Of a stretch of 51,277 bases of DNA, positions 5,552-51,013 are shown piece after piece (within the stretch, counting starts at the first letter, position 1; every line of letters begins with the position of its first letter). Made by a program: the position numbers and the translations under genes. The stretch is from the NCBI RefSeq assembly GCF_000855665.1, contig NZ_JXSS01000103.1, positions 1 through 51,277 of the forward strand. The letters are read 5' to 3'. The notes below the pieces were generated by a model. The model saw only the letters and a program-made list of their open reading frames with translations. It made no database searches and was not told where the DNA came from. Origin of the DNA: Lysobacter sp. A03 (GTDB lineage Bacteria > Pseudomonadota > Gammaproteobacteria > Xanthomonadales > Xanthomonadaceae).

Positions 5552-7384
5552 ATGTTGATCGGTCAGGGTGGACTCAGCGGACTCACCAACCGCTTGCAGA
5601 TGTTGGTACCGTTGCAGAACCTGCAGCGGCCAATGCCTTTCTCGCCGCTTTCGCCATCGCCGCTTGGCATCAGCGGTCTGCGCGAACCGAGCTACCACCC
5701 GCAGCTGGCTTCGCTGTCCCCGGCGCGACTGGCACCACAGGCCCCGCCGTCTCCGCCCAGCCCCTATGCCCTGCCTGCCGGCAGCACGCTGAAGGATGCC
5801 ACCAGCGGCACCAAGGCGCAGCCGTTCGATGTGACGATGTCGCAGCTGGCGACCTCGGTCTACGGAACGCGCGGCGCACCGCCTGAGGGCTGGAGCGCGG
5901 TCAGCGACTCGATGCTGGAATCACGCGGGATCGAGAACCCGGCCACCTGGCGCCAGGAATTCCTTGGCGGCGTCGAGCAGACCACCGCCAACCAGTTCAA
6001 GGCCGAGGTCTACACCGATGGTGAGGGCAACTTCGTCCTCGCCTATCGCGGCACCGCCGAAGGCGGCGCGGATTGGGGCGACAACTTCCAGCAGGGCCTT
6101 GGCTTCGAGACCGGTCCGGTCGACAAGTTCACCGGCCTGGCTGCCGACAGCGCGATCGAGTTTGCCCGTGTATTCGGAGATGGGGAGGCCGGGGCCGCGA
6201 CCAACCTGGCCATCACCGGCCACTCGCAGGGCGGTGGCCTGGCCTCGGTCGCGTCGCTGGCCACCGGCATCTCTGCGGTTACCTTTGACGCCTCGGGCAT
6301 CCACCCCAACACCCTGGATCGCCTCGGCATGGCCAGCCCGCAGCAGGCGCGCGACATCGCCGAAGGCGGCCAGATCCGCGCCTACTCGATGAAAACCGAC
6401 CTGCTGACGCGGGTGCAGGAGTCCGGTCCGCTGTCGCTGGCTGCCCCCGACGCGCTGGGCACCAAGATCGTCGTCGAGCCCAGTGGCATCGACAAGCACA
6501 CGTTGACCGGGCGCGCGGCAAAACACGAATTCGATCTGCCGCTGCTCGGGCAGGCCGGGGCCAACGGGCTGGTGGAAGCGATGCGCAACAGCGGCATCCC
6601 GGTCATCAGCGATGTCGGCCAACTGGCCTACAACGCGCTCAGCCACAGCCCCAACCTGCTCACCGACACCATGATCGCGCGAGAGCCATGGCAGGCCGGT
6701 TACCAGAACCCGTCGGACTTCGGCAAATCCCTCCACGACATGGTGCCCGAAGGCCTGCGCGATGACTTTGCGCGCAACACCCACGAGGTGGCCGACGAAG
6801 TCAACGGCGTGCTCAAGACCGACATGGCCGACGGCAACTACCTGCAGGGATCGGTGAAGATCGCCGGGCATGTGGTTGACGGGGCCATCGACTCGGTTGG
6901 CGATACGATCCACCACACCGCGGAAGGCGTTGCGGCGCGCGTGGATGAGCGCGTCGAAGGGCCGGTGGGCGATGTGTTGGCCGGTGCGATCTCGCTTGGC
7001 GGCAAGGCGGCCCAGTTCACCGCCGACAAGCTCGGCGACGGGATTGAGCAGATCGCCGGCGCCCAGGGCGCCATTGTGCAGAACACGTTTGACGGTGCCG
7101 TCTGGGCCGGCGGCAAGGCGGTCGAAGGCATCCAGTGGACCGGCGAAAAGGCGATCCAGGGCACCACCTGGGTGGCTGACAAGGCGGTCGAGGGTGCCAA
7201 GTGGACCGGCGAAAAAGCCGTCGAAGGCGGCACCTGGGTCGCTGGCAAGACGGTCGAGGGCGCCAAGTGGGCCGGCAACAAAGTGGTTGAAGGCGCCACC
7301 GCGATCAAGGATGGTGTGACCAATACCGGCCGAGCGATCGGCGAAGCCGTCTCCAACTCGCGGGTCATGCCCTGGAACTGGTAA
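5552..7384 (+). CDS. Class 3 lipase-fold protein with C-terminal hendecad repeats (candidate antibacterial effector)
   Basis: A 610-residue protein with no signal peptide. Residues about 110-330 resemble an alpha/beta-hydrolase of the lipase class 3/DUF2974 type: FVLAYRGTAEGGADWGDN precedes a nucleophile elbow ITGHSQGGGLAS with Ser225, and ISAVTFDASGIHPNT follows. The last quarter is Gly/Ala-rich, with six consecutive 11-residue units (K-A-V-E-G-x-x-W-x-x-x) at residues 522-587. The start has a strong AAAGGAGG site six bases upstream. The next gene, an ankyrin lipoprotein, begins on the base after the stop codon. Secreted phospholipase effectors of type IV and type VI systems in related bacteria are often encoded beside periplasmic immunity lipoproteins, so I infer an interbacterial toxin. 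I see no xanthomonad XVIPCD secretion domain. Confidence 0.75.
   Translation: MLIGQGGLSGLTNRLQMLVPLQNLQRPMPFSPLSPSPLGISGLREPSYHPQLASLSPARLAPQAPPSPPSPYALPAGSTLKDATSGTKAQPFDVTMSQLATSVYGTRGAPPEGWSAVSDSMLESRGIENPATWRQEFLGGVEQTTANQFKAEVYTDGEGNFVLAYRGTAEGGADWGDNFQQGLGFETGPVDKFTGLAADSAIEFARVFGDGEAGAATNLAITGHSQGGGLASVASLATGISAVTFDASGIHPNTLDRLGMASPQQARDIAEGGQIRAYSMKTDLLTRVQESGPLSLAAPDALGTKIVVEPSGIDKHTLTGRAAKHEFDLPLLGQAGANGLVEAMRNSGIPVISDVGQLAYNALSHSPNLLTDTMIAREPWQAGYQNPSDFGKSLHDMVPEGLRDDFARNTHEVADEVNGVLKTDMADGNYLQGSVKIAGHVVDGAIDSVGDTIHHTAEGVAARVDERVEGPVGDVLAGAISLGGKAAQFTADKLGDGIEQIAGAQGAIVQNTFDGAVWAGGKAVEGIQWTGEKAIQGTTWVADKAVEGAKWTGEKAVEGGTWVAGKTVEGAKWAGNKVVEGATAIKDGVTNTGRAIGEAVSNSRVMPWNW
7115..7312 (+). 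repeat. Six 33-bp in-frame units coding hendecad repeats
   Basis: Six tandem 33-base units encode 11-residue blocks beginning KAVEG, KAIQG, KAVEG, KAVEG, KTVEG and KVVEG, the first five with Trp at position 8. Eleven-residue periodicity predicts right-handed coiled or amphipathic membrane-surface helices. The DNA units are similar but not identical. Confidence 0.85.
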
Positions 7385-43504: not shown

Positions 43505-44836
43505 ATGGCTGTTGTTCCAGCGCTTTCCACGCAATGCGTGATCTGGTTTGGAGAACCACTGCGCCACGAACGCGCCGCCCTGGGCGCGGCCGGTTGGCAG
43601 GTGCGTGCAGCGCACGCTGATGACGGGATCGGGCTGCGCGCAGGCGACACGGTGGTCGGCCTGCTGGATCTGCGCGACGGCAGCCAGGGCTGCCTGGACC
43701 GGCTGGAGCGTCTCACCGATGACCACGATTACCTGTCGTTGCTCGCGGTCGTGCCGGCGGGGATCAGCCACGCACCGGTCCGCCATCCCCTGTTGGACCA
43801 ATGCGCCGCGATCCTGACCGCACCGCTTGACCTGTCGCGGCTGATCCAGGCCCTGGGTCGGCTGGCGCATGAGCCCCCGCTCCACCCCACCCATGCACTG
43901 GATGCGCTGATCGGCGCCAGCCTCCCGATGCGGGACATCCACGGCACCATCCGCAAGTTCGCACCGGTCGATCTGCCGGTACTCATCACCGGCCAGACCG
44001 GCACCGGCAAGGATGTCGCCGCGCGAGCGCTGCATGAGCTCTCGGCGCGTCGCCACGCCCGTTTTGCTGCGGTCAACTGCGGCGCACTGTCGCCCAACCT
44101 GGTCCAGTCCGAACTGTTCGGACACGAGCGCGGTGCCTTTACCGGTGCCAATGCGCGACGCACCGGACTGTTCGAAACCGCTGACGGCGGCACCGTGTTC
44201 CTGGACGAGATCGGCGACCTGCCCCTGGAGGCGCAGACCAACCTGCTGCGCGTGCTGCAGGAACACAGCGTGCAACGCGTGGGCAGCCACGAATCGATTC
44301 CGGTGGATGTGCGGGTGCTGGCTGCCACCAACGTCGATCTGGAAGCCGCCGTGGCGGCAGGCAGGTTCCGCAATGACCTGTTCTATCGCCTCAACGTTCT
44401 GCGACTGCACATGCCGCCGCTGTACGAGCGGGGCAAGGACATCCTCCTGCTTGCAGCGCATTTCCTGAGTGCCTTCCGGGAATCGAACCCCACCCGGGCG
44501 CGCGCCTTCAGCGCCGATGCGCAGAAGGCCATGCTGGGGTTTGATTGGCCCGGACACGTCCGCGAGCTGATCAACCGGGTCCAGCGCGCTGCGGTCATCG
44601 CCAGCGGCGAGCTGATCAGCGCCGAGGATCTCGGGCTGTGCGGCAAACAGCAGCCGCCTGCAGGTGACGGCGCCCTGGATGTGGCCCGGGAATCCGCCGA
44701 GCGCGAGGCGATCCTGAACTGCCTGCGCGAGAGTGGATTCAACATCAGCGAGACGGCGCGCCGGCTGAAGGTGTCCCGGGTGACGGTGTATCGCCTGTGC
44801 CGCAAGCACGGCCTGGACTTGGCCGAGTTGCGCTGA
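43505..44836 (+). CDS. Sigma-54-dependent activator, VpsR-like
   Basis: A 443-residue enhancer-binding protein. The first 135 residues form a degenerate receiver-like domain with no obvious phosphoacceptor pocket. The AAA+ domain follows: Walker A GQTGTGKD (about 163-170), the sigma-54 contact loop GAFTGA at 210-215, Walker B TVFLDEIG, and FRNDLFYRLNVLRL. A Fis-type helix-turn-helix ends the chain (NISETARRLKVSRVTVYRLCRKHGL). Related proteins control biofilm matrix genes. It is tail-to-tail with the six-gene Fap-like operon, whose promoter has a good sigma-54 -24 element, so it is the likely activator. A G6 run lies before the ATG. Confidence 0.93.
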   Translation: MAVVPALSTQCVIWFGEPLRHERAALGAAGWQVRAAHADDGIGLRAGDTVVGLLDLRDGSQGCLDRLERLTDDHDYLSLLAVVPAGISHAPVRHPLLDQCAAILTAPLDLSRLIQALGRLAHEPPLHPTHALDALIGASLPMRDIHGTIRKFAPVDLPVLITGQTGTGKDVAARALHELSARRHARFAAVNCGALSPNLVQSELFGHERGAFTGANARRTGLFETADGGTVFLDEIGDLPLEAQTNLLRVLQEHSVQRVGSHESIPVDVRVLAATNVDLEAAVAAGRFRNDLFYRLNVLRLHMPPLYERGKDILLLAAHFLSAFRESNPTRARAFSADAQKAMLGFDWPGHVRELINRVQRAAVIASGELISAEDLGLCGKQQPPAGDGALDVARESAEREAILNCLRESGFNISETARRLKVSRVTVYRLCRKHGLDLAELR

Positions 44837-44887: not shown

Positions 44888-46270
44888 TCACAGCATGTAC
44901 GGCACCTTGAACACCAGGCTGAAGTCCGGCGCATCCGGGGTCAGACCGATGCCCAGCGAGCTGACCAGGGTGGTGTGCTGGTTGAGCGCGTAGGTCACGC
45001 CCAGATTGAACATGCCCGCGTTGGCGTCACTGCCGATGATCTTGGTCCACTCCTGACCGTCGTAGCGGGTCCGGGCACGGGCGCTCAGCTTGTCGCTGTA
45101 GGAGATGCTCAGGCTGGTGCGCTCGTTGAACGCGAACGCCACGCCGGCACCGAAATAGAAGCTGCGCCCCAGCTGCACATCACCCGGATTGACGGTCTCG
45201 GGGTTGTTGTCGAGGTCATCGAAGCTGTTGCTGAACGAGTGGATGTAGCCGAAGTTGCCGAACAGGATCGCCGGATCGGCGGTTTTCACCACCGACACGC
45301 CCACGTTGGTCTGCCAGACGCCATTGCCGGTGGGCTCCTCCTGGGGCACGGCGAAGCGGATGAACCCGTCGTCATCGCGCTCAAGCACTTCCCAGGAAAT
45401 CCCGTACGGCTCGCGCCCGGTGGGGGCTGTGACGCCGAGCGTAAGCACGGTCTCCGGCCAACGCGGGCTTTCCATGAACATCCGATAGTTGCCGCTCACG
45501 GTGACATCGCCAAAGCCGTGCCCGAAGGTGTCCTCCTGGGCCACTGCACCGGCCGATCCGCCCGCACCGCCCTTCTGGTACACCGTCTTGCGCGCGATGT
45601 AGGGCACATCCAGGTTCAGGGTCAGGCGCGGATTGAGCCCGTAACGGGCGGCGAAGTTGTAGGTCAGGGTGTCGGACTCGACGTTCTCGATGGCGATGTT
45701 GCCCAGGAAGATCGCGTCCAGCGCCAGGAAGCCGGTCAGGGTCAGTTGCTTGCGGTCGTAGCGGTTGTAGGTGACGGCATTTTCCAGGGTGAGCCGACGA
45801 TCGAACACCGCCGCCACCTGCTGTTTCACGTCATCGACGCTGCGCTTGGAGGCTTCCTTCGCCTCGGCCGCTTCGGCGGGGCTGCTGGCATAGCCCTCCG
45901 CGGACGTCGTCGGCGGGGCGGCAGCCGACGGAATCGCTACCGGCGCGGGGGACGGACTGCTTGCGACCGCTGTGGCGATCGGCTGGGCCGGCAGGGTCTT
46001 GCCGTCGACCCGGGCCTGCAGCGCCTGCACGCGCATGTCCAGCTCACGCAGACGGCGGACCTCCTGGGCGTAGCTGCCTTTCAGCACTTCCAGCTCGGCC
46101 AGCAGCGCGCGCACGTCGGCCTGGTCCTGCGGATCGACGCTGCGCTCCGGGCCCGCGCCGGTTGGCTGGGCTTGCGGCGCTGGCTGGGCGGGCCGGGCTT
46201 GCTGGGCCGGCGCCGCGAAGGGCGTGACACCGGCCAGGACCACGGTGATGGCGATTGGCAGGACTTTCAT
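44888..46270 (-). CDS. FapF-like outer-membrane exporter (last gene of Fap-like operon)
   Basis: A 460-residue exported protein starting MKVLPIAITVVLAGVTPFAA, with GAAGGA about seven bases upstream. After an Ala/Pro/Gln-rich stretch comes a coiled coil at about 50-90 (ALLAELEVLKGSYAQEVRRL), then a Pro/Ala linker, then alternating amphipathic beta strands to a C-terminal aromatic-rich end (FSLVFKVPYML) typical of outer-membrane barrels. This coiled-coil plus barrel plan is that of FapF, the Pseudomonas amyloid exporter. Its gene is last in the operon as in fapABCDEF, 99 bases after the fapE-like gene. Confidence 0.82.
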   Translation of the reverse strand: MKVLPIAITVVLAGVTPFAAPAQQARPAQPAPQAQPTGAGPERSVDPQDQADVRALLAELEVLKGSYAQEVRRLRELDMRVQALQARVDGKTLPAQPIATAVASSPSPAPVAIPSAAAPPTTSAEGYASSPAEAAEAKEASKRSVDDVKQQVAAVFDRRLTLENAVTYNRYDRKQLTLTGFLALDAIFLGNIAIENVESDTLTYNFAARYGLNPRLTLNLDVPYIARKTVYQKGGAGGSAGAVAQEDTFGHGFGDVTVSGNYRMFMESPRWPETVLTLGVTAPTGREPYGISWEVLERDDDGFIRFAVPQEEPTGNGVWQTNVGVSVVKTADPAILFGNFGYIHSFSNSFDDLDNNPETVNPGDVQLGRSFYFGAGVAFAFNERTSLSISYSDKLSARARTRYDGQEWTKIIGSDANAGMFNLGVTYALNQHTTLVSSLGIGLTPDAPDFSLVFKVPYML

Positions 46271-46369
46271 GCGCGTCCTTCCCTCTCCGAGGGCTTCACT
46301 GTCCCTGTGCCGGCGCTCCGACCGATCACGCTCCACGCTCTCGCCGTCCATGCGTCTGCCTGCTCCATG

Positions 46370-47212
46370 TCAGTAGCCTCCCGGCCCGATCCCGCGCGTC
46401 ATCTGTATCGCCTGGGCCACGTTCTGCGCCAGTTGCGCATTGGACGCCAGTGACTGGCGAACCAGGTCGATCTCCATCCGGTTGCTTACCTGCTGGTGGT
46501 CGCTGGTCAGCTGGATCGACTGGCCCAGGCTGCCGTTGCGAATCCACTGCTGGACCGCACCCTGCCCCTGGACCTGCAGCAGCACGTTGGCACTCCCGCC
46601 ATCGAACCCGGCACTGGCCACGGCGTCGTCGACGCGGCTGGTGGCGCTGCCGGGCGCGTATGCCGCGACGGACGCGGGTGCATCGCCATCACGCACGTTC
46701 AGGCGGGTGACGTTGGCGGCGATGTTGCCGTCACCGGCCACCTGCACGCTCTGGGTCATGCCCGACACGTTGGCCAGCCCGGACGCATCAACGCTGCGGG
46801 CAATACCGTCGCTGCCGGTCACCGGCGCGTCGACCGCGGTGATGTTGACCGTCGGCATGAAGCTGACCACCGGGCGGCCGCCCTGGGAGAAGTCCATGCC
46901 CAGCAGCAGCGTACCTTCAAGGGTCTGGCCGGACGCGGTCTGCCAGGTGGAGATCATCGACACACCGAACCAGGCCACCTGATGGTCGCCCACCGTGTAG
47001 CGCCCGCGCATGGTCGCCAGCTCGGGATCGGGGATTTCGGTCATGCCTGCCGCGCGGCGGACAGCAGGCGCGTCAGCCGAAGTGGGTGGTGCTGAAAGGG
47101 CACCCCCGGCAGCGGCCGCAACGGCCTGCAAGCCGCTCGCCTGGGCCGGTGTCGCCAGCAGCAGGCCCAGCGCGAAGCCGGCGGTGATGAGGTTGGAACA
47201 AAGTCGGCGCAT
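46370..47212 (-). CDS. FapE-like exported protein
   Basis: A 280-residue exported protein with signal peptide MRRLCSNLITAGFALGLLLA. The mature part has a RGRYTVGDHQVAWFGVSMIS segment, then WQTASGQTLEGTLLLGMDFS and beta-rich, Asn/Gln/Ser-rich sequence (ANVTRLNVRDG, NVLLQVQGQGAVQQWI), ending IQMTRGIGPGGY. The beginning fits FapE-type proteins, but this was judged by eye. AAGGAG eight bases before the ATG lies at the end of the upstream peptidase gene. In the Pseudomonas operon FapE is a minor extracellular component. Confidence 0.72.
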   Translation of the reverse strand: MRRLCSNLITAGFALGLLLATPAQASGLQAVAAAAGGALSAPPTSADAPAVRRAAGMTEIPDPELATMRGRYTVGDHQVAWFGVSMISTWQTASGQTLEGTLLLGMDFSQGGRPVVSFMPTVNITAVDAPVTGSDGIARSVDASGLANVSGMTQSVQVAGDGNIAANVTRLNVRDGDAPASVAAYAPGSATSRVDDAVASAGFDGGSANVLLQVQGQGAVQQWIRNGSLGQSIQLTSDHQQVSNRMEIDLVRQSLASNAQLAQNVAQAIQMTRGIGPGGY

Positions 47213-47224
47213 GATCGCGCTCCT

Positions 47225-47932
47225 TCAAAAAAGATCGGCGTGGGTGAAACCGAAGTCCAGCAGGTCGGCCTCACTGATCGGTCGCTGCATGGCCAGCAAG
47301 GCGCGCGCACTGGGGCGCTCGGAGGGCTGCAGCAACGCCGTGTTGCGGTCAAAGTCACTTCCTATAACGACGAACACTGCCCGTGACGGCCACGACTCGA
47401 GGAATTCCTCGATCGGCACACTGCGGTTGCCAAGGATCGGATCTGCGATTTCCGCGTACTCGCCCGCCACCTGCTTGAGCACGACGAAGTGGCGGAATCC
47501 GCGCACGTCCATCAACACCAGGCCCGGGACGCGCAGCGATCGCAGGCGCTCTTCACTGATCCGGTAGCCGCGCCCGCGCATGCCGATCGACTCGACATAG
47601 CGCTTGATGTCCAGCAACGAGAATCCCCGCTGCTCCACCAGTTCCGCATCCGCGATGCCCAGCATGCCCTGGATCACCGTCGTCTCATCGGCATCCAGGT
47701 GGTAGGCGTAGCGCAGGATGGTTGCCAGCGCCGAGGCGCCGCAGCTGTAGTCGGTCTGTTGCCGCACGATGTTGCGGAAGCGACCTTCGCGCATGCTCTC
47801 CACGTTGCGGGTGTACAGGCCGCCGTTGGGCAGCACCCCGCTGAACGCGATCTCGCCGGCCAGTGCGGGCGGCGCGAATGCGGACCACGTCAGCACGCAG
47901 CCCGTTGCCAGCATCTGCAGGAATCGGGTCAT
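47225..47932 (-). CDS. C39-family peptidase, FapD-like
   Basis: A 235-residue exported papain-like protease with signal MTRFLQMLATGCVLTWSAF. The catalytic Cys64 is in QQTDYSCGASALATILRYAY, followed by His148 in VRGFRHFVVLKQ and Asp in EIADPILGN, so the triad is intact. FapD has this plan and is needed for Fap amyloid secretion. It has no ABC transporter fused, unlike bacteriocin C39 proteases. It lies between the large subunit gene and the FapE-like gene as in fapCDE. Confidence 0.88.
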   Translation of the reverse strand: MTRFLQMLATGCVLTWSAFAPPALAGEIAFSGVLPNGGLYTRNVESMREGRFRNIVRQQTDYSCGASALATILRYAYHLDADETTVIQGMLGIADAELVEQRGFSLLDIKRYVESIGMRGRGYRISEERLRSLRVPGLVLMDVRGFRHFVVLKQVAGEYAEIADPILGNRSVPIEEFLESWPSRAVFVVIGSDFDRNTALLQPSERPSARALLAMQRPISEADLLDFGFTHADLF

Positions 47933-47952
47933 GTCACTCTACCGTTGAAAGG

Positions 47953-47991
47953 GAAAGCCCCGCTCCCGGGGGAAAGGAGAGCGGGGCTTTC
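47953..47991 (-). terminator. Intercistronic hairpin between fapC-like and fapD-like genes
   Basis: Arms 47953-47965 and 47979-47991 form a perfect 13-bp stem with a 13-base loop. Reading with the operon it is followed by CCCTTTC, a weak U-tract. It may be a leaky terminator or a 3' stabiliser that leaves more subunit mRNA than export mRNA. Confidence 0.75.
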
Positions 47992-48035
47992 GGGACCCGG
48001 TCGCAGGGGAGGGCGACCGGGGTTACGCTCCTGGC

Positions 48036-49670
48036 TTACTGCTCGCCGCCGCCGCCGCCGCCACCACCGCCGCCCGTCGAGGGCTGAGCGACCGCGAGGG
48101 ACAGGCTGTTGGCCTGCAGGTTGCCGGTACCCGCGGCGACGTTGACGCCGATGTTGCCGGAGGCGGCGCTGAACGCGCTGCCCGACAGGCTCGCCGTGTT
48201 GGTCGCGTCCACTGCGATCCAGTACGAGTTGGTCACGCTGCCGCTCAGGCTGGCATCCAGTGCCGCGTAACCCAACTCCAGGAAGCCCAGCTCACCGGAC
48301 TGGCTGGACTCGGTTGTGCCCGAGACAGAACCTTCGCCGTCCATGTCGACGCCAAACGCCAGCGCGCCGCCGTCGTCGTTGAGATCGGATCCGCCCTGGG
48401 TATCGGTATCCAGGTCGAGGTGGCCCATCAGGTTGCCGCCCGGATGCGGGTTGGACGAGTCGTCGTTGGCTCCGTTGGACCACATGTCGGGGTACACGTC
48501 GCCGATCTGGTCGGCGAAGCCCGACAGCGATGCGGTGCTGGTGCCATCGAAGCTGCCCTGCGAGGTGCCTTCGTAGCCGCCGTAACCTTCGGCGATCGTG
48601 ATGCCGTCCACCGTACCGCTCAGGTCGATCGCCACGGTCTCGGTGCGTCGCTCGTAATGTCCGGCGTTGTCGGTCACGTTACCCGAGCTGTTCTGATTGG
48701 AACTCACGCTCGATTGGGCGTAGGCACTCGTGGCCACCGACGCGGCCAGCGCATTTTTCTGCTGGTTGTTGTTGCCAGCGGCAATGTTGACCCCGATGTT
48801 GCCGGAGGCCGCACTGAACGCGTTGCCACCCATGCTGGCGTCGTTGGTCACGCCGCTGTTCATGGTGAGGTTGCCGCTGCCCGCCTGGTTGACGAAGACT
48901 TCCGCATCGGCCATGCCGAAGGCGAAGCTCGCATCCGCCGCGGACAGGGCCGCAGCGTTGTCCTGCACGTTGTTGTCGCCGGCGGCGACGTTGAAGGCCA
49001 GGTTGCCGGACGCGTCGGACGCCACATCGTCCTCGATCGACGCCTCGTTTGTCAGCATGTCGTTCAGGCCGAGGTTGTCGCTGGAAGACTGACGGTTGTC
49101 GACGATGGCAATGGCCGCCGAATCCAGCTCGATGTCGCCACTGATGGTCGGGTTGCCGGTGAAGCTGATGTCCGAGCTCAACGACAGGTCCTTCTTCAGC
49201 GAGACCGATACCTGGTGCTCGTTGCCTTCCTTGCGCACGTCGGAGTTGACCACCTCGGTGCGCTCGATGTTCTCGGTGACGTCGTTGGACCAGGTGTAGG
49301 CACGGTCATCGGTGATGGACGTGTCGCTGGAGTACGAATCGCTCACCGAATTGCTGGTGCTGTTGTCGACCGAGGTGCTGTAGCTGCGATCATCGTTGAT
49401 CGACACGTCGCCGGTATAGGAATCGCTCACCTGGTTGCTGGTGTAGTTGTAGGTGGATGTGTTGTCGGTGGTCGTGTTGGTCGTGTCGTTGTTGACGGTG
49501 GTGTTGCGGGTGTCGTCGACGGTGATGTCCCAGTCTTCCACGACGACGTGGTTGTGCAGGATATCTGCACTGACATTGGGGTCATCCACGCTCTGGGCAA
49601 ACGCCAGCGGGCTGGCGAGCAGCGTGGTGACCGCCAACGCAATGGCGGTTTTGCGGATCGTGATCTTCAT
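48036..49670 (-). CDS. FapC-like major amyloid subunit candidate
   Basis: A 544-residue exported protein with signal peptide MKITIRKTAIALAVTTLLAS (cleavage after AFAQ). Residues 45-130 are Asn/Thr/Ser/Asp-rich with a tandem duplication (VSDSYTGDVSINDDR, then VSDSYSSDTSITDDR). The rest has amyloid-type repeats: ASGNLAFNVAAGDNNVQDN, ASGNIGVNIAAGNNNQQKN and ASGNIGVNVAAGTGNLQAN, as in FapB/FapC. No cysteine is present, unlike the CxxC of Pseudomonas FapC as I recall it. The tail is ten glycines then EQ, coded by a GGC/GGT-type run. The start has AGAGGA about eight bases upstream; an in-frame ATG 30 bases earlier is less likely. Confidence 0.8.
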   Translation of the reverse strand: MKITIRKTAIALAVTTLLASPLAFAQSVDDPNVSADILHNHVVVEDWDITVDDTRNTTVNNDTTNTTTDNTSTYNYTSNQVSDSYTGDVSINDDRSYSTSVDNSTSNSVSDSYSSDTSITDDRAYTWSNDVTENIERTEVVNSDVRKEGNEHQVSVSLKKDLSLSSDISFTGNPTISGDIELDSAAIAIVDNRQSSSDNLGLNDMLTNEASIEDDVASDASGNLAFNVAAGDNNVQDNAAALSAADASFAFGMADAEVFVNQAGSGNLTMNSGVTNDASMGGNAFSAASGNIGVNIAAGNNNQQKNALAASVATSAYAQSSVSSNQNSSGNVTDNAGHYERRTETVAIDLSGTVDGITIAEGYGGYEGTSQGSFDGTSTASLSGFADQIGDVYPDMWSNGANDDSSNPHPGGNLMGHLDLDTDTQGGSDLNDDGGALAFGVDMDGEGSVSGTTESSQSGELGFLELGYAALDASLSGSVTNSYWIAVDATNTASLSGSAFSAASGNIGVNVAAGTGNLQANSLSLAVAQPSTGGGGGGGGGGEQ

Positions 49671-49715
49671 TGCTTCATCCTCTCTCTCTCGTGGTACCAC
49701 TTGAACGGGAACGAT

Positions 49716-50366
49716 TCACGGGTGTCCGTCGACAGACAGCGCCAGCTGGTTGCTGATGCTGTTGCCCGACCCCGCGATCTGGTTGAGTTGCAGAATTCCT
49801 TCGAATCCCTGCATGGCGGTGGATTCCACCGCGACGTTGCGCGTGCCGGGTCTGGCCACGTCCGGATTCGGGGACGTCTGCCCCCCTGCTGACGCGGATA
49901 CGGCCGACAGCAGATTGCCGTCGGTCGATTCGCGTATGCCCTGGTGCGCCAGCGCGGCGGCGACGAGGTTGGTCTCCGCGTTGCCGCTTCCGCTGGCCTG
50001 ATTGATCGACACCAGCCCGCTGGCATGGCCGAACGCCAGGCCACCGATCGTGGCGGACGCATGCGTGGGGGTGTCGTGGTGATCGTTGGCGGTTTGCTGG
50101 TTGGAGCGGGCGAAGGCAGCGGCCTGGCCACCGCTTGCGAAGCTGCGCAGGTTGGATTGCAGGTTGTGGTCGCCGGCCGCCAGGTTGGCGCCGACGGCGC
50201 CGCTGGCATCGACAAACGCCCGGCCGTCGATGCGGCTGGTGGCGAGGTAATCGAGCATCTCGGCGTAGCCGTCGCCGGACTGGGCAGCGATCACCGGCGA
50301 GCAGAAAAGCGTGGCCGCGACGGTAATGGCCAGACACGGCAATGAGCGGGAGCAGATCATCGCCAT
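49716..50366 (-). CDS. FapB-like amyloid nucleator candidate
   Basis: A 216-residue exported protein starting MAMICSRSLPCLAITVAATL (an alternative ATG is at 50360). After cleavage near SPVIAAQ, it holds three repeat units like those of the larger subunit: ASGAVGANLAAGDHNLQSN, ASGLVSINQASGSGNAETN and FEGILQLNQIAGSGNSISN. The shared repeats and smaller size parallel Pseudomonas FapB, which nucleates FapC fibres. Cys occurs only in the signal peptide. The ATG is one base after the stop of the fapA-like gene, so the two are coupled. Confidence 0.8.
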   Translation of the reverse strand: MAMICSRSLPCLAITVAATLFCSPVIAAQSGDGYAEMLDYLATSRIDGRAFVDASGAVGANLAAGDHNLQSNLRSFASGGQAAAFARSNQQTANDHHDTPTHASATIGGLAFGHASGLVSINQASGSGNAETNLVAAALAHQGIRESTDGNLLSAVSASAGGQTSPNPDVARPGTRNVAVESTAMQGFEGILQLNQIAGSGNSISNQLALSVDGHP

Positions 50367-50367
50367 G

Positions 50368-50886
50368 TCAGCCCCCCGGCGGTGGAGTAGTGGCCGGAGG
50401 TGAGACCAGCGGGAACTGCGCCAGAGCGCCACGAACCTGATCGCCGACACCGCGGGTGACATTGCCCACCGCGCCCATCGGCACCCCGAGTGCCTGGTTG
50501 ATACCGCTGCCCGACAGGGTGCCGTTGGTGGTTGAGGTCAGCGATCCCAGCGGCGCCAGCGCACGCCCCGTCATCTGGGTCACGGCCGGCAAGGGTCGGG
50601 CGGCGCTGCCCGCGCCCAGGCTCGCGTACTCCTCCTCGGACAGCTCACCCGTGCCGAGGACCGCGTCGAGATTGCTCTTGGGCGAGGGGTCCACGATCAG
50701 CGCCATGCCCGGCGGCTTGGTCCGGATCGCGTGGCGGGCCGAGACGTCGCGCAGCAGGACCATCTCGCCGTGCTTGGCGTGGACGGCCTTGCGTGCGCCC
50801 GAAGCAGACGCGCTCGCGGGCATCAGCACGAGGGCGATGAGCAGTAGAGGTACCAGTCCGGCTGGCGTGGCGATTGCGTAGCGCAT
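50368..50886 (-). CDS. FapA-like exported protein, first gene of the operon
   Basis: A 172-residue exported protein. The ATG at 50886 (MRYAIATPAGLVPLLLIALV) is preferred over 50892 because GGGGA lies about six bases before it. After the signal, the mature part has GEMVLLRDVSARHAIRTKPP and GMALIVDPSPKSNL, then GTGELSEEEYASLGAG. The Gly/Thr/Val/Pro-rich end (GSGINQALGVPMGAVGN) is simple in composition. FapA of Pseudomonas is a periplasmic chaperone-like protein; the match here rests on position and size, with weak sequence recognition. It is the first gene after the sigma-54-type promoter. Confidence 0.72.
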   Translation of the reverse strand: MRYAIATPAGLVPLLLIALVLMPASASASGARKAVHAKHGEMVLLRDVSARHAIRTKPPGMALIVDPSPKSNLDAVLGTGELSEEEYASLGAGSAARPLPAVTQMTGRALAPLGSLTSTTNGTLSGSGINQALGVPMGAVGNVTRGVGDQVRGALAQFPLVSPPATTPPPGG

Positions 50887-50916
50887 ATCCATTCCCCAGG
50901 TAGGTCCCGGGGATGA

Positions 50917-50934
50917 CGCATCATGCGTGCCAAC
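50917..50934 (-). promoter_or_regulatory. Candidate sigma-54 promoter (-24/-12) of the Fap-like operon
   Basis: On the minus strand the sequence reads GGTTGGCACGCATGATGCG. The -24 element TTGGCACG matches the sigma-54 consensus over all eight bases; four bases later ATGCG keeps the -12 GC of TTGCW. It lies 31 bases ahead of the fapA-like ATG at 50886, so the 5' leader would be short (about 20 bases) and end in the GGGGA Shine-Dalgarno site. Confidence 0.72.
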
Positions 50935-50995: not shown

Positions 50996-51013
50996 TGTCA
51001 CAGGGCTGTCACA
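50996..51013. promoter_or_regulatory. Two direct TGTCACA repeats, candidate activator sites
   Basis: TGTCACA occurs at 50996-51002 and 51007-51013, 11 bases apart, about one helical turn. They lie 60-100 bases upstream of the -24/-12 element, the usual place for an enhancer-binding protein. The DNA between (50935-50975) is AT-rich, which would allow IHF-assisted bending. Confidence 0.45.

Follow-up and report, generated by a model that had tools for sequence, protein, structure and literature searches.

A complete, divergent fapABCDEF operon beside a BrfA-like sigma-54 activator in Lysobacter sp. A03, with a candidate FapD cleavage site in FapE

Introduction

The closest described relative of the locus treated here is the fapABCDEF operon of Pseudomonas (PMC3792158, in part), with six genes in that order, three repeats each in FapB and FapC, a C39 peptidase (FapD), and a FapF homologous to the solved barrel (PDB ID: 5O65). 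Passages of a 2025 survey (PMC12392863) give the repeat motif as GN-x-G-x-N...G-x-x-N-x-Q-x-N, usually in three copies, count three repeats in 94.2% of 1094 FapC genes, and recognize a Fap system by a FapB/C repeat gene with at least three other fap genes in one cluster. As for regulation, brfA in Pseudomonas fluorescens PF07 is adjacent and convergent, and the fapA promoter was assigned to RpoN by 5' rapid amplification of cDNA ends (PMC9207406, in part), while BrfA itself is described as sensing cyclic di-GMP (c-di-GMP) in part of PMC13101488. Within the Xanthomonadales, Fap was reported in 2013 from Rhodanobacter and Stenotrophomonas (PMC3792158, in part). Here, we consider a stretch of 51,277 nucleotides from Lysobacter sp. 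A03 (contig NZ_JXSS01000103.1; the window), in which six minus-strand open reading frames (ORFs) and their convergent neighbor make up, at a probability of roughly 93%, a complete, intact, and divergent fapABCDEF operon under its own BrfA-like sigma-54 activator.

Identity of the operon

The six ORFs run in the order fapA-B-C-D-E-F over positions 44888-50892, with all reading frames intact and, at the preferred starts, successive intergenic gaps of 1, 45, 103, 12, and 99 bp. The original prediction, made from the letters of the window, had placed six consecutive exported proteins on the minus strand in this order and read them as a divergent Fap system. The ORFs agree with that arrangement, and of the two ATG codons at which fapA could start, 50892 and 50886, the second is the operon end given there. 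Their content and order are also those by which the 2025 survey would recognize a Fap system. Export signals were assessed by eye. In the comparison with family models that had been suggested as a check, all six products matched the NCBIfam Fap models in operon order, each with a score below the curated cut-off (in bits, 385.8 of 700 for FapF, 188.8 of 195 for FapC, and 32.7 of 110 for FapA). Since six family matches fall in operon order and the same order recurs in relatives, the Fap identity goes beyond chance.

Residues 170-486 of the 487-residue FapF ORF match the Pseudomonas FapF structure 5o65 (E-value 5.3e-80), as well as 5o67 and 5o68. The barrel foreseen in the sixth protein is thus of the solved FapF type rather than of a different porin family, for which the Pfam match to Phenol_MetA_deg (E-value 8.7e-5) is weak by comparison. 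Likewise, a profile built from 19 FapC proteins matches the solved FapC fibrils 9nqd (4.5e-34) and 9u4u (1.4e-33), and the second and third proteins, anticipated to share repeats, hold three copies each of the published motif. The fourth protein, FapD, is the expected C39 peptidase, and its Q58, C64, H148, and D164 are present in what we take to be the catalytic roles. The fifth had been described as Trp/Asn-rich, which does not hold, as Trp accounts for only 3 and Asn for 11 of the 280 residues of FapE. It had also been claimed that a C39 peptidase without an ATP-binding cassette (ABC) transporter marks a Fap system. FapD is indeed there, but the claim is too strong, because FapD-like C39 peptidases occur in cassettes with no detected FapB or FapC (L040-L047) and the FilB/FilC relatives exist. 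The C39 peptidase and barrel are related to those of the Fil pilus system, presumably of Acinetobacter, though the window differs from it in having amyloid repeat proteins, and a Fil assignment (FilB, E-value 2e-31; FilC, 6.4e-19) was set aside with the Fap models scoring far higher. Amyloid formation and a role in biofilms would follow from membership of the Fap family.

A leader-like motif in FapE

In C39 (double-glycine) leaders, hydrophobic residues are spaced at positions -12, -7, and -4. Residues 60-72 of FapE, IPDPELATMRGRY, are spaced in this way. Cast as a strict pattern, [VILMF]x4[LMI]x2[VIML]RG[KRG][YF], the motif was found in 24 of 25 FapE proteins, L096 being the exception with Q in place of M. 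The remaining Fap proteins and regulators from ten loci, 60 in all, gave no match. Among 2866 ORFs (507,685 residues) of the loci scanned, it occurred 34 times, 24 of these being FapE rows (L048 is a duplicate). The ten others, all of the form RGG[FY], lie one each in L040-L047, L098, and L099, in a gene between FapD and FapF homologs. A looser pattern (any residue at -3; G/A/S/K/R at -1) hit 2 of 10 FapC and 0 of 10 each of FapA, FapB, FapD, FapF, and the regulator. Across 34 aligned FapE sequences, R69 and G70 are invariant, and the strict motif, with its hydrophobic residues at -12, -7, and -4 and its Gly at -2, is kept in 33. At -1, where C39 leaders usually have Gly, Ser, or Ala (PMC10986499, in part), all 34 carry Arg or Lys, whereas Gly occupies this position in 10 of 10 sister proteins, with a true MRGG form in all ten sister loci examined.

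These sister loci (L040-L047, L098, and L099) have FapD-like and FapF-like genes, with FapB and FapC not detected in them, and possibly represent a wider C39/barrel export class. In L040, the upstream neighbor is a 465-residue Gly-rich exported protein, and a further protein of 162 residues carries LAAMRGGE.

We also looked for the motif more widely, in 398 genomes drawn from across the phylum. FapD matches with E-values of at most 1e-20 came from 38 of these. The motif was present in an ORF in 21 of 30 loci from this draw (14 of 23 once the seven genomes used earlier are put aside), and the reversed pattern was present in 0 of 606 ORFs. All eight loci above the NCBI FapD cut-off, which by inference are of the Pseudomonas type, have the motif, and two FapEs scanned from such loci scored 346.1 and 345.5 bits against a FapE cut-off of 250. 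Six of the nine misses show a relaxed form, e.g., LSDPELSEYRGGF in L122 and LSDSELGQQRGRF in L108, though this relaxation was made with the misses already known and is no independent test. As for the rest, an RGG is found by eye in a neighboring small protein in L124 and L127, and nothing of the kind in L126. In such loci from other bacteria (L122-L124 and L127), small proteins on both sides of the peptidase gene carry RGG, such as ETELAALRGGQ (L124) and NLDQQRGGT (L127). In three operons with tandem fapC genes (L036-L038), the gene in the place of fapE has a weaker version, e.g., VDDATLSEVSGKF, while that of L039 gave no match to the motif. A second Gly-rich place in FapE (GLANVSG-MTQSVQVAGDGN) was set aside, by eye, as an amyloid-like repeat.

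From these comparisons, we give about even odds that FapE in Fap systems at large bears a modified C39 leader (hydrophobic-x4-[LM]-x2-[MLI]-R-G-[RK]-[YF]) and would be cut there by FapD. FapD/FapF cassettes would then form a broader class of outer-membrane export systems licensed by a C39 peptidase. In the amyloid branch of this class, the leader would have drifted from RGG to RG[RK], with the double glycine kept in sister cassettes that have other cargo (e.g., the Gly-rich protein). The likeness to the leaders of C39 peptidase-ABC exporters lies in the hydrophobic positions and the Gly at -2. In contrast to those exporters, FapE would be exported by Sec, FapD has no ABC transporter, and -1 is Arg or Lys (Gly in the sister cassettes).

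Alternatively, and with a chance somewhat short of one in two, the motif may do no more than begin the mature FapE domain, as its first strand or as the place where folding starts, with FapD cutting at another place in FapE or in the FapF linker. Such a role would suit a motif that leads directly into a conserved FGV/FGI segment and has an unusual -1 residue. Passages of a 2017 paper (PMC5557850), in which the FapD target is termed unclear, also propose the FapF linker and report by mass spectrometry no Pseudomonas FapE peptides from the first ~70 residues. The motif fits with FapE as the substrate, but its Gly is at residue 39-40 in FapEs of 247-250 residues, short of ~70, so agreement with that gap is loose. 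Arguing for a leader instead are the retained hydrophobic residues and Gly at -2, the MRGG in the sister-cassette protein encoded next to FapD, and the L122 protein, which matches the NCBI FapE model solely over positions 1-52, the leader part (E-value 1.2e-4). Later literature on this site was not among the top matches for FapD/FapE cleavage, which is no proof of absence. What is useful in the comparison around this operon is that it points to one exact candidate position at which FapD would act, and the invariant Arg-Gly of all 34 FapEs, together with the Gly-Gly of the sister cassettes, makes a simple mutagenesis test feasible in Pseudomonas.

Repeats and the N-terminal extension of FapC

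The FapC repeats lie near 48933-49061, 48729-48857, and 48084-48212 (around ORF residues 232, 300, and 515), and those of FapB near 50127-50255, 49944-50072, and 49725-49853 (around residues 56, 117, and 190). The third FapB repeat is degenerate, matching the published pattern for this protein. In the 19 aligned FapC sequences, the invariant columns coincide with the Gly, Asn, and Gln residues that the 2025 survey gives in its motif. Unlike its Pseudomonas counterpart, FapC of the window has an acidic N-terminal extension of 163 residues ahead of the first repeat region and lacks the CxxC near the C-terminus. This extension varies by 32 residues in length among the closest relatives (FapC of 554 versus 585-586 residues), and in genome G055 about 17 residues stand in its place (by eye). 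Neither the window nor L028-L034 has any cysteine in FapC, and the mature part has one in L035 and L049. In part of a review (PMC6173800), the CxxC is termed conserved, and the passages at hand from the 2013 (PMC3792158) and 2025 surveys do not use it as defining.

It is quite improbable that the locus is a Fap-like secretion unit for a non-amyloid surface protein, in which the acidic extension and linker of FapC are the functional part, with the repeats serving as no more than an anchor. Other cargo does occur in FapD/FapF-type cassettes, as with the Gly-rich protein of L040, and the extension is variable and rich in Ser, Asp, and Thr. Yet the published invariant Asn, Gln, and Gly positions are kept in 19 of 19 FapC sequences, their profile matches solved amyloid fibrils, and FapB is present.

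The regulator and the fapA promoter

The product of the gene convergent with fapF combines a sigma-54 activator domain of the AAA+ type, containing GAFTGA, with a Fis-type helix-turn-helix, and a -24/-12 site precedes fapA. In these respects the locus resembles that of P. fluorescens PF07, which likewise has a convergent Fis-family sigma-54 activator beside fapF and a -24/-12 site before fapA (PMC9207406, in part), the likeness being one of description and not of compared BrfA sequences. Of five orthologs scanned, the window's included, three have a VpsR domain above the Pfam cut-off, and L034 gave no match. A VpsR-type N-terminus hints at c-di-GMP binding. The genome encodes nine GGDEF domains. 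The sigma-54 DNA-binding domain is also present, split between two contig ends (G000:C44:2-244 and G000:C63:4-234), most likely by the assembly.

Upstream of the -24/-12 site, the palindrome TGTNACA occurs twice, and nowhere else in the 51-kb window, where shuffling expects 5.8. In all 12 loci of the window type, one or more copies of TGTNACA lie upstream of a TGG-type -24/-12 site (the promoters of L035, L049, and L089 were found with a relaxed pattern). The distance to the nearest copy is 61-64 bp for nine loci, 75 bp for L035, 145 bp for L030, and 155 bp for L089. Over the same upstream stretch, TGTNACA was found in 0 of 13 other fap loci, with seven further loci left out of the comparison. 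In L082 and L084, it occurs 735 and ~1400 bp upstream, beyond the assessed stretch. The Fisher's p of 1.9e-7 for this difference is overstated because the 12 loci are close kin. Similarly, the 12 window-type regulators end in YRLC[RK]KH, and the others seen mostly in YRLM, YRLL, or HRLI (the L088 regulator is a fragment). Compared with PF07, this recognition helix and the palindromes are tied to the window lineage.

When scanned genome-wide, the promoter-plus-palindrome pattern occurred in 6 of 10 genomes of the genus, always at fap, and the reversed pattern in none. It was present in 22 of 198 genomes of the family, where 16 of 25 distinct promoters lie 4.2-4.9 kb upstream of fapF (joined by eye). 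A first sigma-54 scan (TTGC consensus, one mismatch) missed the fapA site because the site reads ATGCG, and the score test alone is weak, with the fapA site's score of 10 reached by 93 of 3000 stretches of 410 bp picked at random from the window. The case for a fapA promoter would hence be one of conservation and position, not of score. Since control of fap by c-di-GMP, BrfA, and RpoN is already known in Pseudomonas, the TGTNACA sites are the addition. Such sites were not found in the passages of PMC9207406 and PMC13101488 on BrfA control of fap. The layout offers a small, testable candidate binding site for BrfA-like regulators in the Xanthomonadales.

The fapA promoter pattern also occurs at two other places in the genome, G000:C32:11524-11541 and G000:C36:35748-35765, without TGTNACA at the fap spacing. 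Elsewhere, a regulator beside fap (L095:1493-2839) has neither GAFTGA nor GSFTGA and for this reason may not work with sigma-54.

Several observations weigh against the reading of the locus as a Fap operon under a BrfA-like activator. All six Fap scores are under the NCBI equivalog cut-offs, the regulator N-terminus reaches 19.1 bits with the VpsR domain against a cut-off of 23.7, the strict promoter layout is seen in just 16 of the 26 best FapF matches of the 198 family genomes, and nine of the 25 promoters of this pattern are not near fapF. The FapF cut-off is, however, very strict, as no FapF match in 369 genomes of the class reaches 700 bits. That the operon is decaying or silent and retained by linkage is very unlikely, given intact frames, identities of 86-97% to the nearest relatives, and conserved catalytic positions, repeat positions, and promoter.

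Relatives and distribution

In a FapF search of 60 genomes, including that of the window, 19 matched at E-values of at most 0.001, two of them with very short matches. The gene-order check suggested in the original prediction turned out favorably, in that eight further genomes (G001-G005, G007, G018, and G055) and Dyella mobilis (L049) share both the order of the six fap genes and the convergent regulator. Here, L048 shares its contig with the G001 locus and was not counted separately, and the nearest named record, Lysobacter antarcticus (FapF 91% identical), was treated as one with G001. When 35 FapD rows were placed in a tree, all 12 window-type operons fell into one supported group (100/96), with long-branch warnings for other parts of the tree. 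The fapABCDEF systems reported in 2013 come from the same order of bacteria (PMC3792158, in part), and the window differs in being from a Lysobacter-like genus, with only Dyella mobilis compared by name. As Fap in the Xanthomonadales is already published, the operon adds one genus to the known family. An origin from a plasmid was set aside after a FapD search of plasmids (94 records, none above 60% identity), the other window genes scanned looking chromosomal, and one from a phage after an 18-base promoter scan of viral contigs without a match.

A second kind of fap operon occurs in the same genus and family (L036, L037, L038, and L039), with one FapB-like gene followed by 3, 1, 4, and 3 FapC-like genes in tandem, respectively, and then by FapD, FapF, and a different regulator. 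Queries with FapA and FapE of the window found no match in these, though ORFs exist in their places. Both kinds lie next to the same fructose-bisphosphatase gene and represent divergent versions occupying a single chromosomal site. Two FapD-like genes lie ~3-5 kb apart on one contig in G660 (C78) and in G708 (C11).

Proposed working order

By analogy with BrfA of Pseudomonas, the activator would bind TGTNACA at high c-di-GMP and switch on sigma-54-dependent transcription at the -24/-12 site upstream of fapA. The six Fap proteins would pass through Sec, and FapD, as a periplasmic C39 peptidase, may then cut FapE immediately behind its leader-like ELATMRG(R) motif, a newly proposed site. Under the 2017 model, this cut could license the FapF pore, through which FapB, FapC, and FapE would exit. 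FapC would stack by its three repeats into an amyloid fiber, with the long acidic N-terminal extension probably exposed as a corona.

Table 1. Coordinates of the fap operon, its regulator, and putative upstream sites in the window.
Feature	Position	Strand	Details
fapA	50368..50892	-	Start 50892 or 50886; NCBIfam chaperone_FapA, E 8.2e-8, scored on longer ORF
fapB, predicted minor amyloid subunit	49716..50366	-	NCBIfam FapB, E 5.4e-21, scored on longer ORF 49716-50462
fapC, predicted major amyloid subunit	48036..49670	-	NCBIfam FapC, E 2e-55; repeats; profile match to PDB 9nqd, 9u4u
FapC N-terminal extension, ORF residues 37-199	49104..49592	-	Rich in Ser/Asp/Thr/Asn; net charge -23
fapD, predicted periplasmic C39 peptidase	47225..47932	-	NCBIfam FapD, E 8.4e-77; PF03412, E 2e-17
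fapE, predicted fiber-associated protein	46370..47212	-	NCBIfam FapE, E 6.3e-27
C39-leader-like motif, FapE residues 60-72	46997..47035	-	IPDPELATMRGRY; proposed FapD site
fapF, predicted trimeric-barrel secretion pore with N-terminal coiled-coil-like stretch	44888..46270	-	NCBIfam FapF, E 2.1e-115; PDB 5o65
BrfA-like sigma-54 activator	43505..44836	+	Convergent with fapF; GAFTGA; VpsR-type N-terminus; PF00158, E 4.2e-68
Sigma-54 (-24/-12) promoter-like site	50916..50933	-	TTGGCACGCATGATGCGT
TGTNACA palindrome	50996..51002		62 bp upstream of -24 element
TGTNACA palindrome	51007..51013		73 bp upstream of -24 element; 11 bp from other palindrome

Elsewhere in the window, an ORF without an NCBIfam match (5552-7384, 610 residues) contains a tandem repeat of ~33/66 bp at 7103-7283.

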